Source: Acidobacteriota bacterium
GTDB taxonomy: Bacteria; Acidobacteriota; Terriglobia; Terriglobales; Acidobacteriaceae
DNA: 64,000 nucleotides
Direction: 5' to 3'
Assembly (NCBI GenBank): GCA_021810625.1
Contig: JAJZIJ010000005.1
Location: 1-64,000 of the forward strand
Positions 21,978 to 64,000 of this stretch are shown here, in pieces. The notes under the pieces are model-generated. The model searched no databases. It had not been told where the DNA came from and saw nothing but the letters and a program-made list of their open reading frames with translations. A program made the translations under genes and the position numbers. Each line of letters begins with the position of its first letter. Position 1 is the stretch's first letter.

Positions 21978-24785
21978 CTACGTTAGGTCGCGCCAGTTGG
22001 GGCCGGAGGCGATGTCGGCCACCAGCGGAACTTTCAGCTCGACCACCTGCTCCATCGCCGCGCGCGCCAAGGGTTCCAGTGCGCTGAGTTCATCGGGAAC
22101 AACATCGAAGACCAACTCATCGTGAACCTGCAAGACCATTCGGGAACGCATTTTTTTCTGCTGCATCTCGCGGTCGATGCGAATCATGGCCAGTTTAATA
22201 ATGTCCGCTGCTGTGCCCTGGAGCGGCGTATTGACGGCGGTGCGCTCGGCAAACCCGCGCTGATTGGCATTGCGGCTTGCGATATCCGGGATGGGCCGGA
22301 TGCGGCCAAAGAGCGTGCGCACGCTCTGGTCGCGGCGCACCGCTTCAATGGTCTGGTCGATGAAGACGCGCACGCCCTGATAGCGCTCAAAATATCTCTG
22401 AATGTAGCGCTGCGCCTCGCCCTGGTCGATGCCCAACTGCTGCGCCAGGCCGAAGGGGGAAATTCCATAGACGATGCCGAAATTGACGGCTTTGGCGCGG
22501 TTGCGCGTGGTCTTGTCCATCTGCTCCGCAGGCACGCCAAAGACCTCGGAGGCGGTCAGCGTATGAATGTCCACATTCTCCCGATACGCCTTCAATAGCA
22601 GCGGGTCTTCAGAAAAGTGCGCCATCAGCCGCAACTCAATCTGCGAGTAATCCGCCGAGAGCAGCACATTGCCCGGCGCGGGCACAAACGCGGCGCGAAT
22701 CTCGCGGCCCAACTCCGTGCGGATGGGAATGTTCTGCACATTGGGATTGGTTGAAGACAGCCGACCCGTGGCCGTGCCCGTCTGTTGAAACGTAGTGTGA
22801 ACGCGGCCCTGCGCGTCGGCCAGCAAAGGCAGCGAGTCGGCGTAGTTCGATTTGAGCTTGGCCAACTGGCGATATTCCAGCACCAGCCGGGGCGCAGTGT
22901 GATGCTCCGACAATTCCTCCAGCACATCCTGTGCCGTGGAGACGACCTTGCCGCGACCATGTCGCATCGGCTTCGGCAGGTTCATTTTATTGAACAAAAC
23001 ATCGCCCAGTTGCTTGGGGGAATTCAGGTTGAAGCGATGTCCGGTTTGCTCAAAAATTTTCTCGCCCAACTCCTGCATCGAAGCATTCAGCCGCGAGGAG
23101 ATGGTTTGCAGAAACGCGCTGTCGATGCGGATGCCCGCCTGCTCCATGCGCAGGAGTACCGGGGCCAGCGGAAGCTCCATCGTCTCGTAGAGGTCGAGCA
23201 TTTGCGTCGCCTGCAAATCCTTGCGCAGGACAGGAGCCAATTGCGCAATGGCCGCCGCCGTCGCTGGCAGGCGGTCTTCCGCCTCGCACACAAGCGGCTG
23301 ATTGCCAAAGCGCGCCACCACATCCTCCAGCCGATGACTGCCATGCGTCGGATTGACCAGGTAGGAGTAGAGCATCAGATCATCGCGCGCGCCCGCAAGC
23401 CGTATGCCCTGCGGCTCCAAAGCGCGTGTCAGCGATTTGAGATCATGCACAGACTTGGGCAGGGAGGCATCTTCGAGGGCTGCGCGTATCTTTTTGTTTT
23501 CCATCGACACGCGCAGCGCCGTCGCCACAGGCATCGTCGTTGGCGCATCCGCCGCCAGACCAATCCAGGCTGTCGTGGCCAATGTTGTTTTTTCTTCTTG
23601 CTCCATCATGTCCAGCAAGGATGGGGTCTTCGGCGCATCTTCGGATTCCTCCGAATCTCCGTCGCTGGAAATCTCCACGTCCCTCGCATCGTATGCAATG
23701 GCAAGTCCGTGCATCCGGGCTGAGGCCAACAGCGCGTCGATCTCGGCCTCCGATGGATCAAGGATGCACTGCGCCCGAAGCTGCGGCTCCGACGCGGCTG
23801 ATGCAGAATCCTTTGCGTCTACTGCCGTTGCGCGTGGCCCTGTAGCACCCAGCTCTTTTAGCAGAGAAGTAAATTCCAACTCGGAAAACAATTCGCGGCA
23901 GGCCAGCGCGTCGGGCGGTTGCGTTTGCATTTGCGGCAAATCCAACGGCATGGGAACGCTGGTGTGAATCGTGACCAGTTCCTTGCTCAGCAGAATCGTC
24001 TCGCGATTTTGTTCGAGCGATTCGCGGTATGTCTTGCGCTTCACTTCGCTGGCGTGGGCGAGCACAGCCTCCACGCTGCCATATTGCTGGATCAACTCCA
24101 CCGAGCCTTTGTCGCCGATTCCCGGCGCGCCGGGAATGTTGTCGATGGCATCGCCGCGCAGCGCCATCACGTCAATCACCTGCTCCGGCTGCACGCCCAG
24201 CGCGGCCACAACCCCGGCGCGATCCAGCACAAGATTGTCCTTGGCCGGATTCAGCACGCGCACCTGTTCGTTCACCAACTGCATCATGTCCTTGTCGCTG
24301 GAGACGATGTAGACCGGATGCCCCGCCGCTGCCGCTTGTTGCGCCAGCGTGCCAATCACGTCATCGGCCTCGTAGCCCTCGTGCTGCAACATGGGAATGC
24401 GCAACGCCTCCAGAGCGCGGCGAATGTAGGGCAACTGCTGCGCCAGATCAACAGGCATGGCCTCGCGATTGGCCTTGTAGCCCGCGTACTCCACCACATC
24501 AAAGCTCTGCGTCTTGCTGTTGTACTTGCGAATGGAGGTAAAAGCCCTGGCCTGCGTGTCGCGCAGCAGCGGGGCGCTTACGTCAAAGATTGCGGCCAGA
24601 TACTCCGGCGAAAAATCCTTGCGTAGACGATTCAGCATGTTCACAAAAACGTAGACGGCTGCCGTCGGAACACCTGTCCGCGTGGACATGGGGCGCTGCC
24701 GCTGCATGGCATGATAAGCCCGAAAGATGAAGGCCATCGTGTCCAAAAGAAAAACTGCGGGCTTTGCGGTTTCTGTGGCGGCCAT
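21978..24785 (-). CDS. polA: DNA polymerase I
   Basis: Repair polymerase of 935 residues with three domains: 5'-3' exonuclease (LDTMAFIFRAYHAM, GDAIDNIPGAPGIGDKGS), a middle 3'-5' exonuclease-like domain, and family A polymerase (LLSADYSQIELR, RNRAKAVNFGIVYG, LQVHDEL). The middle domain seems catalytically dead: where the DxE of ExoI should be the text is AYDARDVEIS, and the other acidic ligands are not found. It also carries an acidic insertion near residues 375-395. I use ATG 24785; a TTG six codons upstream is possible. A palindromic repeat lies in the leader. Confidence 0.95.
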   Translation of the reverse strand: MAATETAKPAVFLLDTMAFIFRAYHAMQRQRPMSTRTGVPTAAVYVFVNMLNRLRKDFSPEYLAAIFDVSAPLLRDTQARAFTSIRKYNSKTQSFDVVEYAGYKANREAMPVDLAQQLPYIRRALEALRIPMLQHEGYEADDVIGTLAQQAAAAGHPVYIVSSDKDMMQLVNEQVRVLNPAKDNLVLDRAGVVAALGVQPEQVIDVMALRGDAIDNIPGAPGIGDKGSVELIQQYGSVEAVLAHASEVKRKTYRESLEQNRETILLSKELVTIHTSVPMPLDLPQMQTQPPDALACRELFSELEFTSLLKELGATGPRATAVDAKDSASAASEPQLRAQCILDPSEAEIDALLASARMHGLAIAYDARDVEISSDGDSEESEDAPKTPSLLDMMEQEEKTTLATTAWIGLAADAPTTMPVATALRVSMENKKIRAALEDASLPKSVHDLKSLTRALEPQGIRLAGARDDLMLYSYLVNPTHGSHRLEDVVARFGNQPLVCEAEDRLPATAAAIAQLAPVLRKDLQATQMLDLYETMELPLAPVLLRMEQAGIRIDSAFLQTISSRLNASMQELGEKIFEQTGHRFNLNSPKQLGDVLFNKMNLPKPMRHGRGKVVSTAQDVLEELSEHHTAPRLVLEYRQLAKLKSNYADSLPLLADAQGRVHTTFQQTGTATGRLSSTNPNVQNIPIRTELGREIRAAFVPAPGNVLLSADYSQIELRLMAHFSEDPLLLKAYRENVDIHTLTASEVFGVPAEQMDKTTRNRAKAVNFGIVYGISPFGLAQQLGIDQGEAQRYIQRYFERYQGVRVFIDQTIEAVRRDQSVRTLFGRIRPIPDIASRNANQRGFAERTAVNTPLQGTAADIIKLAMIRIDREMQQKKMRSRMVLQVHDELVFDVVPDELSALEPLARAAMEQVVELKVPLVADIASGPNWRDLT

Positions 24786-24816
24786 ATTGGATGAGTCTAC
24801 CAAGCCGGGGCCACAC

Positions 24817-24884
24817 TCCCTCAGGGGCTGAAGCCCGCGTTGTTTTTGCTGTATGTATGGCGCGGCTGAAGCCGCGCCCCTTCA
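24817..24884 (-). repeat. Palindromic REP-like repeat, copy 1 (polA leader)
   Basis: Two hairpin-forming units, GGGCTGAAGCCC-like (24825-24836) and GCGCGGCTGAAGCCGCGC (24860-24877), are joined by an A/T-rich linker. Read on the minus strand the element starts TTGAAGGGGCGCGGC and ends GCCCCTGAGGGA, matching copy 2 before alaS. It lies 32 bases upstream of the polA start codon. Confidence 0.7.
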
Positions 24885-24910
24885 AAATTCCGACTTGCAC
24901 AGAGATTTCT

Positions 24911-26071
24911 TCAGGCGAGAAACATGCAATCGCCATAGGAAAAAAAGCGATAGCCCTGCGCCACCGCGTGCCGATATGCAGCCAGCACATTTTGTTGGCC
25001 ACCAAAGGCGCAGACCAGCATCAGCAGCGTGGACTGCGGCAGATGGAAGTTGGTCAGCATTCCGCGAACCAGGCGGAAGGAGAATCCCGGCGAAATAAAA
25101 ATACTCGTTTCGCCGGAGTGTGGTTGCAGGTTGCGCCCGTCGGCGACCAGCGCACAATGTTCCAATGCGCGCACCGTCGTAGTGCCAACGGCAATCACGC
25201 GGCGGCCATCGCTCTGCGCTCGATTCAGCGCTGCGGCTGTCTCTGGCGGCAACGTGTAGCGCTCGGAGTGCAAAACAATTTCATCGAGCCGCTCCACGCG
25301 CACCGGCTGAAACGTTCCCAGGCCAACGTGCAAGGTGATGGCCGCAATCTCCACGCCGCGCGCGCGCAGGGCATCGAGCACCTGCGGCGTAAAGTGCAGG
25401 CCCGCCGTCGGCGCAGCCACAGATCCACGCGATTGCGCGTACACCGTCTGGTAGCGCTCGCGATCCGTTGCGGCATCGCTGCGATGGATGTACGGCGGCA
25501 AAGGCATGTGGCCCAGACGATCCAAAATGGCGTAGAAATCCTGCACTGGAGCGAAGCGCAGTCGCCGCTCGCCAAACTCGCCACGCGCAATAATTTCTGC
25601 TTCCAACAATGGAGCGGAATTTGGCAGTGAAGCAGCAGACGCGCCCATCTCCTCCCCGGCTCTCGTTTCCTCTTCGGCATAAAAGAGAAGCCGCTCGCCC
25701 ACGGGCAGCTTGCGCCCCGGACGAACCAGCGCGCCCCATTCCAATGGCGCGTGCTGTGTGGTCAACAGAACTTCCACGCGGCCCTGTAGATGTTCCGCAG
25801 CCGTAGAAGGACTGACGCTCGCTGGCTGCGCGCGCAGGCCAGCGCGACGCGCAAAGAGCCGCGCCGGAATCACGCGGCTATTATTGAGCACCAGCAAATC
25901 TCCCGGCTGCAAGCACTGCGGAAGATCGCGAAAATTTCTGTCCACATGGATGCCCGTTGCGCGGTCGAAGGCCATCATGCGCGAGGCGGCGCGGTCGGCC
26001 AGCGGTTGCTGCGCGATCTGCTCCTGCGGCAGGGTGTAGTCGAAATCTGAAACGAGGCAGTCGCCGGGCAC
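24911..26071 (-). CDS. queA: tRNA preQ1-34 S-adenosylmethionine ribosyltransferase-isomerase
   Basis: Transfers and isomerises the ribosyl moiety of SAM to make epoxyqueuosine in tRNA. 386 residues; [42 protein letters not shown] and the C-terminal [13 protein letters not shown] are all family landmarks. The start is GTG 26071, 10 bases after the preceding DUF374 gene. Other queuosine genes are not in the window. Confidence 0.95.
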
Positions 26072-60668: not shown

Positions 60669-63467
60669 ATGGAACCTCTTTGGAAACCGGAAAGCTGGGC
60701 CGAACGACTGGCCGAAGTTCAGGAGCAAGAGGGCGCGCGCAAAGAAGCGCCCCTGCGCCGCGATGTGCGTTCGCTGGGGATTTTGCTGGGCAAAGTACTG
60801 CGCGAGCAGGCGGGCGAGCCTCTCTTTCAGGCTGTCGAAGACCTGCGTCGTCAGACGATGGAGGGCCGTCAGGCGCGCCAACGCAAGGATCGAAGCGCCG
60901 CCGAAGCCCTGCTGAACCAGGCCATGTGCCAGATGCAGCAACTCGACGGCACCTTCGCCGGACAACTCACCCGCGCCTTTGCTTTTTATTTTGAGCTAAT
61001 CAATCTTGCCGAGACCAATCACCGCAAGCGTCGCCGTCAGGCGCATCTGCTGGCAGGCGGCAAGCGTGGCCCCCAGCCCGGAGAAATCCGTGGAACCCTG
61101 CGTCGCATGCATCAGGCGGGCATCTCTGCCGAAGAAGCTCTGGCCTTCCTGCGCCAGATTCGCATTACGCCCGTCTTCACCGCGCACCCCACGGAGGTTG
61201 CGCGCCGCTCCGTCCTTTTCAAGCGTCGCCGCATTGGGGGATATCTCGAACGCCTGGATCGCATTCCGCTGCCGGATCAGGATTTGCGGGCGCTGGAACA
61301 GGCTATCCTGTCCGAGATCACCTCGCTCTGGCAGACCGACGAGATTCGCAACCGCCGCCCGTCTGTTTATGACGAGGTGAAGATGGGCCTCGATTATTAC
61401 GAGATCGCTATCTTTCAAACTTTGCCACTCCTGTTTCAGGAGGTCTCCGCTGCATTCGCCGAGGAGTACGGCATTACCATTGAAGCAATTGACCTGCCGC
61501 AGTTTGTGGAGTTCGGCTCCTGGATCGGCGGCGACCGCGATGGCAACCCCAATGTCACGCCGGATGTGACGCGCCGGGCGTTGACAATGGCCACCGCCAA
61601 GCTGCGCAGGCATTACAGCCAGCGCGTGCAGTTGATCTTCGACCTGCTCACCAGCTCCTCGGAGCGCGTGACACTCAGCGATGCTCTTCTCGACCGCCTT
61701 TCCTCATACTCCAAGCTGCGCGAGCGGTCGGGACAAGGCTTTGGCGAGCGTTACGAGCACGAGCTATACCGGAGATTTGTCCTCTGTATACGCGAGCGCG
61801 TGGACGCGGGTCGCGCAGCGACGACGGAGCAGAGTGGCTGCGCGGCCCTGCCGCCGTATCGCTCCGCCGCGGAGTTTCTGGAAGACTTGAACCTGCTGCG
61901 AACCAGCCTCGCCACCCATGCTGGAGCGCGTCTGGCGCGGACGCTCGTCGATCCTCTCATTCTGGAAGTCCGCGCCTTCGGCCTGCATTTGCAAACGCTC
62001 GACATTCGCCAACATGCGCGGCTGCACATCCGCGCCCTGACGGAGATGCAGACCTGGCCCTCGCCCAGCGCTGACCCGACGGCCTTTGCCACCTCCATGT
62101 CGCCAGAAACCATCGACGTGCTGGAGACCTTCCGTACACTGGCCGAGTTGCAGACAGAAAAATCCGCCGATGCCGTGCGACAGTACGTCATCAGCGGAGC
62201 CAGCAGCGTGGACGATGTTTTGCACGTCCTGCAACTGGCGCGGAGCCAGGGCGTAACCTGCGCGGCCACGGAAACCAGCCACGGCCTGATGCCCGTGCCG
62301 CTGTATGAGTCCATTGAAGACCTGCGCAACGCTGCGGACATCTCCCGCGAACTCTGGACGCTTGATGCCTATCAGCCATTGCTCAATTCCTGGTCGCGGC
62401 GGCAGGAGGTCATGCTCGGCTACTCCGACTCCAACAAAGATGGCGGCATGATGACCAGCACCTGGGAGATTTTCAAGGCCCATCGCGCCCTGCATCAAGT
62501 GGCGCGTGAGTGCAATATCCATCTGCGCCTGTTTCACGGTCGGGGCGGAACGGTCGGTCGCGGCGGCGGCCCCACGCATCGCGCCATTTACGCGCAGCCG
62601 ATGGATGCCTTTACCGGGGAGATTCGCCTCACCGAGCAGGGCGAGGTTCTGCACTGGAAGTATTCCGATCTGGTGCTGGCCGAGCGCAATCTGGAGCTGA
62701 TGCTGGCCGCTTCGCTGGATGCGCTGGCGCGTCCCGAAGCGCGTCGCGCTGATGGCCATCGCACCGGAGTCATGCGCGAGGGGTGGGAGCAGGCATTCGA
62801 GGCCATGTCCACCACCGCCTATGCTTTTTATCGCAGGAACATTCCTGAAGACCCTGCCGTGCTCCAATACTTTGCCGAGGCCACCCCGGTCAACGAACTG
62901 GAGAGCGCGCGCATCGGCTCGCGTCCTTCGCGCCGCTCCAACAAGAACAGCTTTGGCGATCTGCGCGCCATTCCCTGGGTCTTTGGCTGGACGCAGAGCC
63001 GCCACATGGTGCCTGCATGGTTTGGCGTGGGCCACGCGCTGGAGTTCTACGCGCAACAGGGCGGGCTGGAACGCCTGCGCGAGATGATGCGCGAATTTCC
63101 CCTGTTCATTGACGTGATGCGCAACGTGGAAATGGCCTTGGCCAAGGCCGATCTGGGCATTGGCCGCCTCTACGCCTCGCTGGTGGAGGATGCCGCGATT
63201 CGCGAGAACGTCTTTGGCAGAATTGAAGCGGAGTTTGAGCGCACGCGCCAGATGGTGCTGGAAGTAACCTGCCAGAAGACACTGCTGGAAAGCAATCCGG
63301 TGCTGGCGCGTTCCATTCAGGTGCGCAATCCGTATGTCGATCCCATGAGCCTGATTCAGGTGGAGATGCTGCGCCGCAAGCGCGCAGGCGACACGCAGCC
63401 TTCCGTCCAGCGCGCCATTGCCGCCACCATCAGTGGCATCGCCGCTGGCCTGCGCAGCACAGGATAA
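60669..63467 (+). CDS. ppc: Phosphoenolpyruvate carboxylase
   Basis: Carboxylates phosphoenolpyruvate to oxaloacetate to refill the TCA cycle. 932 residues, full length: catalytic His in FTAHPTEVARRS, GGDRDGNPNV, GYSDSNKDGG, the glycine-rich FHGRGGTVGRGGGP, and the C-terminal IQVRNPYVDPMSLIQ. The first 110 residues are less conserved. The ATG lies 89 bases after the ABC-F gene on the same strand. Confidence 0.97.
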   Translation: MEPLWKPESWAERLAEVQEQEGARKEAPLRRDVRSLGILLGKVLREQAGEPLFQAVEDLRRQTMEGRQARQRKDRSAAEALLNQAMCQMQQLDGTFAGQLTRAFAFYFELINLAETNHRKRRRQAHLLAGGKRGPQPGEIRGTLRRMHQAGISAEEALAFLRQIRITPVFTAHPTEVARRSVLFKRRRIGGYLERLDRIPLPDQDLRALEQAILSEITSLWQTDEIRNRRPSVYDEVKMGLDYYEIAIFQTLPLLFQEVSAAFAEEYGITIEAIDLPQFVEFGSWIGGDRDGNPNVTPDVTRRALTMATAKLRRHYSQRVQLIFDLLTSSSERVTLSDALLDRLSSYSKLRERSGQGFGERYEHELYRRFVLCIRERVDAGRAATTEQSGCAALPPYRSAAEFLEDLNLLRTSLATHAGARLARTLVDPLILEVRAFGLHLQTLDIRQHARLHIRALTEMQTWPSPSADPTAFATSMSPETIDVLETFRTLAELQTEKSADAVRQYVISGASSVDDVLHVLQLARSQGVTCAATETSHGLMPVPLYESIEDLRNAADISRELWTLDAYQPLLNSWSRRQEVMLGYSDSNKDGGMMTSTWEIFKAHRALHQVARECNIHLRLFHGRGGTVGRGGGPTHRAIYAQPMDAFTGEIRLTEQGEVLHWKYSDLVLAERNLELMLAASLDALARPEARRADGHRTGVMREGWEQAFEAMSTTAYAFYRRNIPEDPAVLQYFAEATPVNELESARIGSRPSRRSNKNSFGDLRAIPWVFGWTQSRHMVPAWFGVGHALEFYAQQGGLERLREMMREFPLFIDVMRNVEMALAKADLGIGRLYASLVEDAAIRENVFGRIEAEFERTRQMVLEVTCQKTLLESNPVLARSIQVRNPYVDPMSLIQVEMLRRKRAGDTQPSVQRAIAATISGIAAGLRSTG

Positions 63468-63508
63468 TCCCGACCGAGACCTGCGGAATCGCTGAGCAAG
63501 TCGGCATG

Positions 63509-63600
63509 TTGAAGGGACGCGGCCTTAGCCGTGAAGGGGACGGGCTTCAGCCCGTCCATAGTTCCAGAAAAATCAAAGCGGGCTTTAGCCCCTGAGGGAC
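63509..63600 (+). repeat. Palindromic REP-like repeat, copy 2 (alaS leader)
   Basis: Three GC-rich hairpin units, ending in GCGGGCTTTAGCCCCTGAGGGA. The start (TTGAAGGGACGCGGC) and the end match copy 1 before polA when that copy is read in its gene's direction, with an extra unit, GACGGGCTTCAGCCCGTC, in the middle. It ends 60 bases before the alaS start codon. Confidence 0.7.
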
Positions 63601-63615
63601 AGCAGTGAAACTTGA

Positions 63616-64000
<385 letters not shown>

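Follow-up and report, generated by a model that had tools for sequence, protein, structure and literature searches.

The palindromic repeat ahead of polA and alaS very probably belongs to a composite mobile family, in which a hairpin pair linked to a REP-associated tyrosine transposase (RAYT) sits within an IS5-type MITE shell that tends to land behind stop codons, and most likely is not a leader of either gene. We followed the repeat through a window of 64,000 nucleotides (the whole stretch of DNA analysed), which is part of contig C38 of a 2.45-Mb genome in 74 contigs (G000), and through related genomes, of which G001, from the same genus, is the nearest relative compared.

A first-pass annotation had reported the repeat at two sites of the window, and our covariance model R1 confirmed it at both, with 83.1 and 82.6 bits. 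The names of the genes that follow, polA and alaS, also held (their neighbours encode QueA and PEP carboxylase), as did the shared orientation of the copies relative to these genes and the spacing of 32 and 60 bases to the start codons. The coordinates given for copy 1 were right to about one base; the left edge given for copy 2, 63509, belongs instead to an extra half unit before the complete core. The extent of the element stood for the core, whereas the outer inverted repeats (24892-24909; 63485-63502; 63609-63626) and the CTGC duplication at copy 2 had been overlooked. The features are as follows.

21978-24785, minus strand: polA (DNA polymerase I)
24794-24799, minus strand: -10-like box TAGACT upstream of polA, with the element on one side and the start codon on the other
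24818-24885, minus strand: copy 1, 68-bp core with left edge TTGAAGGGG, two hairpins and right edge CTGAGGG (R1 match of 83.1 bits and alignment A1)
24825-24836, minus strand: copy 1, hairpin 2 (GGGCTTCAGCCC)
24859-24878, minus strand: copy 1, hairpin 1, stem of 8 bp, loop TTCA (from the alignment and pair counts; position counted from the sequence)
24892-24909, minus strand: copy 1, left terminal inverted repeat (GAAATCTCTGTGCAAGTC; three mismatches to the pattern)
24911-26071, minus strand: queA, whose stop codon abuts copy 1
60669-63467, plus strand: PEP carboxylase gene, ending 17 bases ahead of the left terminal repeat of copy 2
63481-63484, plus strand: copy 2, 4-bp duplication CTGC, left copy
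63485-63502, plus strand: copy 2, left terminal inverted repeat (GGAATCGCTGAGCAAGTC)
63509-63530, plus strand: copy 2, additional truncated left hairpin unit ahead of the complete core
63531-63598, plus strand: copy 2, 68-bp core (R1 match of 82.6 bits)
63609-63626, minus strand: copy 2, right terminal inverted repeat (GGAAGCTCTGATCAAGTT as read on the minus strand)
63627-63630, plus strand: copy 2, 4-bp duplication CTGC, right copy
63645-63650, plus strand: -10-like box TAGACT upstream of alaS, with the element on one side and the start codon on the other
63661-64000, plus strand: alaS (alanyl-tRNA synthetase), N-terminal part only, continuing past the window

The TGA stop codon of queA (24911-24913) lies one base from the left terminal inverted repeat of copy 1, and a pattern search of the flanks recognised no right terminal inverted repeat for this copy. 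A third R1 match in the window, at 63538-63557 (E 0.19), is a single hairpin on the opposite strand. Tandem left hairpins, with the second unit beginning inside or right behind the first hairpin, were seen at the alaS copy (63509-63533), at L072, at L066 (4671 and 8594) and at L033 (8862).

The first-pass annotation had proposed counting the copies in the genome, analysing the covariance of the hairpins and looking for a RAYT. Within the core, about 20 bases separate the two hairpins, the first of which has an 8-bp stem, and the left and right edges lie outside them. Searching G000 with one fixed pattern for each end, allowing up to two mismatches, recovered 79 right ends and 63 left ends; the reversed control pattern recovered none of either. 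Model R1, built from 66 distinct G000 copies including both window copies, matched 91 cores in G000 and 52 in G001 among the candidates scored (at most 125 per genome, under strict filters). A regular expression identified 74 full copies in the G000 stretches examined, and it is on these 74, not on all 91 R1 matches, that the placement statistics rest. Just one of the 74 lies inside a predicted gene; the core is a dispersed palindromic repeat found mostly outside genes, as is characteristic of a RAYT-linked REP in the broad sense.

Across the 66 sequences, 99.4% of 792 cells were paired compared with 85.0% in shuffles, and 97 cells showed change on both sides compared with 26.2 in shuffles, a value reached by none of 500, in a test that favours this structure because it was written down from the same 66 sequences. 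Sliding the hairpin pairing as a control left at most 50.1% of cells paired. The number of base pairs with both-sided change, 6 of 12, is a less telling measure, as 43 of 500 shuffles reach that count. These data show that the hairpins of the core are preserved, by a covariation that does not tell RNA from single-stranded DNA. Two possible affiliations of the core were rejected: membership of the GTAG REP superfamily, since the consensus of the 66 copies has TTGAAGG and CCCTCAG in place of a GT[AG]G guide at the 5' hairpin foot, and membership of the REPINs, since neither hairpin is an inverted copy of the other: they differ in their edges and in loop orientation.

Two G000 genes score above the NCBIfam cut-off for RAYTs, and one of them is flanked by the repeat in inverted orientation. 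At this gene (C50:58112-58660, minus strand) a core ends a few bases upstream of the start codon, and an inverted core overlaps the 3' part of the coding sequence; the stretches searched around the second gene, on C71, contained no core. When 48 RAYT loci were compared, a set that includes distant loci of other phyla and in which some named and unnamed entries may be the same species, 19 had at least one core match at E up to 0.01 and 14 were bracketed by an inverted pair of cores. In 11 of these 14 the distance from the upstream core to the matched stretch was at most about 40 bases, and in L167, L168 and L174 it was at most about 80. Reading the start regions of 20 loci by eye, with start codons inferred and two loci (L171 and L174) ambiguous, we found a GGCTTTAGCC-type hairpin within about 30 bases of the RAYT start in 14, followed in 11 of the 14 by a GAGG- or GGGG-like stretch; several RAYT stop codons fall within the inverted downstream hairpin. 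At some loci (L164, L165, L123-L126 and others) the right edge of the core may double as the ribosome-binding site of the RAYT.

RAYT and core also occur together across genomes. Within the family of G000 (f1), a RAYT match goes together with at least two cores in 22 of 25 genomes and the remaining three have neither, though these genomes are related and the co-occurrence does not amount to 25 independent observations. Outside this family, 10 of 16 genomes have RAYT matches, and cores were found only in G039, where they score weakly. This genome, from another family of the same class, has 72 such weak matches and may carry a related but different repeat. The closest relatives of the RAYT in named records, 53-56% identical, are from Acidobacteriaceae or from Acidobacteria metagenome genomes. 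The G000 RAYT carries the motif YIEQN, the Asn of which would be at the position of N119 in E. coli TnpA-REP. Class 3 TnpA-Y1 proteins are described as having a CnGA foot and a Y----Q motif (PMC6006769); in G000 the CTGA of the core edge is on the 3' side only.

Many copies are further enclosed by GGAAKCTCTGMAYAAGTC-type inverted repeats (GGAAKCTCTG type), usually 24-25 bases to the left and 27-37 bases to the right of the core; the shell ends of the 119-bp unit are of the GGAAACTCTG type. Allowing up to two mismatches in ten bases, we recognised the left repeat in 43 of the 74 copies, the right in 37 and both in 30. The same lax patterns applied to 5000 random places in the same stretches gave rates of 7.1%, 9.9% and 0.8%, respectively, which means that chance accounts for a few of the single-sided calls. 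For 25 of the 30 doubly flanked copies the unit length is 117-129 bp. The 4 bp on either side are identical in 15 of the 30 (shuffled pairing: mean 3.2, maximum 11 in 2000 shuffles), with no exact duplication in the other 15, and agree in at least three of four positions in 23 (mean 11.3, maximum 20 in 2000 shuffles). IS5 has the duplication motif YTAR (PMC10359306); the duplications here are not all YTAR, that of copy 2, CTGC, being one that is not. The units thus have two attributes of an IS5-type MITE, namely terminal inverted repeats related to those of an autonomous insertion sequence and a 4-bp duplication that approximates YTAR.

The IS5 shell does not account for copies with GTAGTGGG-type or CTGCTGAAAAA-type flanks, and among the copies inspected these flank types resolved into no elements with duplications. 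The GTAGTGGG-type flanks, found on one or both sides at L047, L053, L060, L073 and L090, possibly mark another shell. A subfamily comprising L044, L049, L078, L086 and L042 (about 11030) has the left flank ACCCACTATTGTTCGAGG, perhaps a further shell type, which is preceded by CTGCTGAAA in all of these but L049; its right flank ends in CAGCAATCTG except in L042, which resembles a hybrid of a ACCCACTATTGTTCGAGG left half and an IS5-type right half. Shells without a core were sought by eye in 10 isolated G000 stretches: L246, L250 and L251 appear to be degenerate units, and the others are lone partial matches. At L244:500-567 (G000:C11:27299-27366) a shell has both ends and retains TTGAAGG with the hairpins gone, which looks like a deletion of the core or an excision between short repeats.

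Comparison with the sister genome speaks for insertion. Both flanks could be located in the G001 stretches examined for 21 of the 74 copies. G001 has the unit at the same place for 11 of the 21, including the alaS copy, and lacks seven, at six sites (polA, L067, L079, L064, L042 near 11030 and two copies of L088). At L067 and L064 the empty junctions in G001 are clean, with the identical 4-bp duplication present once; L079 has an empty junction with a duplication agreeing in three of four bases. G001 has polA without a copy, and the insertion here is not clean: in G000, 30 bases of the G001 spacer are lacking or replaced. L065 has a different remnant in G001, and L046 gave no usable pairing. 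At L077 (around 3000) and the G001 locus L221 the same stop-codon site holds units in opposite orientation, which could stem from separate insertion events or from an inversion between the terminal repeats. Such polymorphic presence with empty sites is again a property of IS5-type MITEs. Together with the core-flanked RAYT and the terminal repeats with duplications, the empty sites support the proposal of the first-pass annotation that this is a mobile REP-like element.

An autonomous IS5-type partner was found in neither G000 nor G001, and partners were found only in relatives. A pattern search of 23 family genomes identified in G017 a shell-type repeat pair (L242) that spans 1163 bp and contains two open pieces matching DUF772 and DDE_Tnp_1. 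Its left end immediately follows the TAG that ends a 245-codon Crp-like gene, and its 4-bp flanks differ (TTAG and CTAA); G017 itself has neither cores nor a RAYT match. The C-terminal piece of the L242 transposase is matched in 4 of 25 genomes (G008, G009, G010 and G014), with similar ends at one G009 copy only among these matches, and has no match in G000 or G001. DDE_Tnp_1 likewise has no match in the 74 contigs of G000 as assembled, and the proposed mover is thus absent from this genome as assembled. For old MITEs, absence of the autonomous partner from the same genome is usual. Granulicella tundricola carries plasmid copies, annotated as IS5 family transposase, whose ends are GGAAACTCTGCACAAG-like; the flanks are CTAA/CTAA at L265, CTAA/TTAA at L267 and non-matching at L266. 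Besides L242, the insertion sequence matches inspected in relatives (L269, L273, L270, L271 and the fragment L272) have GGAACCTCTG ends only in L269, at a contig edge. Compared with the shell, the ends of E. coli IS5A are identical at 14 of 18 positions on the right and 11 of 18 on the left.

The placement of the copies was assessed relative to genes as called by our simple gene caller, which missed the RAYT gene. Of 74 copies, 27 are tandem sense, 18 tandem antisense, 12 convergent and 8 divergent, with 8 at a contig edge and 1 intragenic. Among the 65 that are flanked by genes on both sides and not intragenic, the downstream gene is co-oriented for 35 and not for 30; the 35 co-oriented genes lie at widely varying distances from the core (median 120, range 32 to 1163). 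Upstream, by comparison, there is a sharp peak: of 39 co-oriented genes on that side, 16 have their stop codon 23-25 bases ahead of the core. In a loose set of 50 copies with a recognised repeat, 17 lie within 3 bases of a predicted stop codon, where with elements unmasked 4.0% of non-disruptive YTNR sites and 12.8% of YTAR sites abut stops. A strict set of copies with both repeats and at least three of four flank identities gave 9 of 23 abutting stop codons compared with 2.79 expected by motif class (P = 0.0006; elements masked in the background). This excess supports the insertion preference that the first-pass annotation had suggested for a mobile element. YTAR is the preferred target of IS5-type elements and is frequent at stop codons; the part of the excess that exceeds YTAR sites may reflect selection or imperfect gene calls.

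We propose that each full copy joins two mobile modules, a REP-type hairpin pair associated with a RAYT, an HUH/Y1 transposase that probably formed or maintains the core, and an outer shell whose ends resemble those of an IS5-family insertion sequence. The resulting non-coding, MITE-like unit of mostly 117-129 bp would be inserted in trans by an IS5-type DDE transposase at YTAR-like sites, with a 4-bp duplication, and it is such an enzyme that appears to have moved the shells. Insertion at YTAA, YTAG or YTGA would duplicate the stop codon and leave the gene whole, and because of this copies would accumulate directly behind genes; the stop-codon excess would then reflect target choice combined with purifying selection. 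The window units, one behind queA and one between the PEP carboxylase gene and alaS, would precede polA and alaS because the genes are closely packed.

A related composite in the genus of G006 adds to the picture. The same shell surrounds an exact GTAGTGCGGCGCTNNAGCGCCGCA hairpin in five of nine G006 loci examined (L240, L254, L255, L257 and L258). Allowing up to one mismatch, G006 has 18 occurrences of this hairpin, compared with none of the reversed control, and it is not present at the one G006 RAYT locus examined, L181. R1 matches L255, L257 and L258 with E of 4e-8 to 2e-6 and L240 with 0.0012, leaves L254 unmatched and also matches L260, out of 68 G006 matches among the candidates scored. 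We had considered these interiors as unrelated cargo and rejected this, as R1 matches three of the five units clearly and one weakly; with these matches the interiors are more plausibly relatives of the core that have diverged and carry a different guide, GTAG being present in the five diverged units. The G006 composite may be old and have diverged, or may have been assembled on more than one occasion. A tentative, possible generalisation is that REP hairpins maintained by RAYTs are spread by an unrelated IS5-type DDE enzyme as cargo of a MITE shell, that the cargo follows the RAYT types of the host (GTAG in G006) while the shell stays constant, and that landing at YTAR makes stop codons safe harbours.

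The first-pass annotation had offered an RNA structure in the mRNA leader as its other reading, and the arrangement of the window copies, both ahead of genes and in the same orientation, invites it. That the polA and alaS leaders hold a cis-acting RNA structure, such as an attenuator, a riboswitch-like or a stability element, is nevertheless highly improbable. The covarying hairpins would suit it, but also suit hairpins of single-stranded DNA; folding is somewhat stronger than in shuffles (z -1.9 and -2.7), yet the window has no Rfam match at gathering thresholds; and the alaS copy is common to G001, whereas the polA copy is missing there. A scan with the full sigma-70 consensus found no promoter between the element and polA or alaS, which counts for a leader, and at both genes a -10-like box separates the element from the start codon, which counts against one. 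Of 24 alaS sequences, 22 have a TAGACT-like motif, defined after inspecting these sequences, close to the aligned start, compared with 0.6 expected from windows further upstream; for polA, where starts are poorly aligned, the motif is present in 9 of 23 compared with 1.9 (G000 and G001 included in both). Transcripts begun at these boxes would exclude the element. A cis-regulatory leader is expected to keep a consistent orientation and distance to the following gene, and the copies do not: 35 of 65 are co-oriented, at distances of 32 to 1163. The first-pass annotation had named copies without such a preference as an argument against a leader function, and this is largely what the genome holds. 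The RAYT genes themselves are an exception: there, the core frequently has its end a short way upstream of the start codon.

Two further explanations dispense with a mobile shell or with tolerance of its position. The RAYT alone might mobilise the core, as in a pure REP or BIME, the outer repeats being older palindromic targets or passive flanks. The RAYT linkage of the cores agrees with this, some copies lack the outer repeats, and REP dimers within longer palindromes have been described in A. variabilis and H. neapolitanus (PMC3733652). It is quite unlikely, however, as the outer repeats begin and end at the duplicated 4-bp targets, the entire shell is gone at empty sites, and there are complete IS5-type elements whose ends are similar. 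Alternatively, the copies might be kept as 3'-end elements that stop read-through or protect mRNA, their position being selected for function and not tolerated. The copies that abut predicted stop codons, 9 of 23 strict and 17 of 50 loose, would fit, as would the REPs reported near 3' ends in other genomes (PMC3733652). Such copies are nonetheless a minority, G001 lacks 7 of the 21 copies that can be compared, and a terminator scan found none at either window copy, its sole match (24947-24967) lying within queA; we consider a 3'-end function unlikely. The most reasonable explanation remains a RAYT-linked hairpin pair carried in an IS5-type shell.

This combination has partial counterparts in known systems. 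The units are like IS5-family MITEs in their IS5-like terminal inverted repeats and 4-bp duplications near YTAR. The interior of an IS5-family MITE is an internally deleted insertion sequence, whereas the G000 interior is a RAYT-linked hairpin pair. In the REPtron or REP-RAYT arrangement, as described, a RAYT gene lies between two inverted palindromic repeats that are also dispersed intergenically (PMC2817692, PMC6006769). G000 shares the flanked RAYT and the dispersal between genes, but its core lacks the GTAG guide, its hairpins are not exact inverted copies and many of its copies sit in an IS5-type shell. REPINs (PMC3116915) are likewise dispersed units of two hairpins with a short spacer; the G000 hairpin edges differ (TTGAAGGGG compared with CCCTCAGGGG), and both loops read TTYA on one strand. 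The TIRYTs or TIRtrons are RAYT-like transposases of acidobacteria with long inverted flanking repeats without GTAG; in Koribacter versatilis only ORF1552 of three TIRYT genes has dispersed repeats (PMC3733652). The likeness lies in the description, an acidobacterial RAYT with inverted flanking repeats lacking GTAG, and the description consulted includes no DDE-type shell with duplications, unlike the G000 units. In GTAG-15 of A. variabilis and CGTC-1 of H. neapolitanus, REP dimers lie inside longer palindromes, so that a repeat pair is nested in a larger inverted repeat as it is here; unlike for the G000 units, no transposon, duplication or empty site figures in the description consulted (PMC3733652). 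The literature searched yielded no report of such a pair of repeats enclosed by an IS5-type shell for which duplications and empty sites are documented.

The present evidence gives no grounds for annotating the leaders of polA and alaS as regulatory RNAs. If the RAYT binds the hairpin near its own start, it could regulate its own synthesis. How REP sequences spread is, to our knowledge, still open. Mobilisation by the transposase has been called likely (PMC6006769), and a REP pair carried inside an IS5-type MITE, with duplications and empty sites, offers one concrete, testable route of spread. The stop-codon excess provides a simple candidate reason for the reported 3'-end location of such hairpins; if stop codons are indeed safe harbours, this would explain why the hairpins are so frequently positioned right behind genes.
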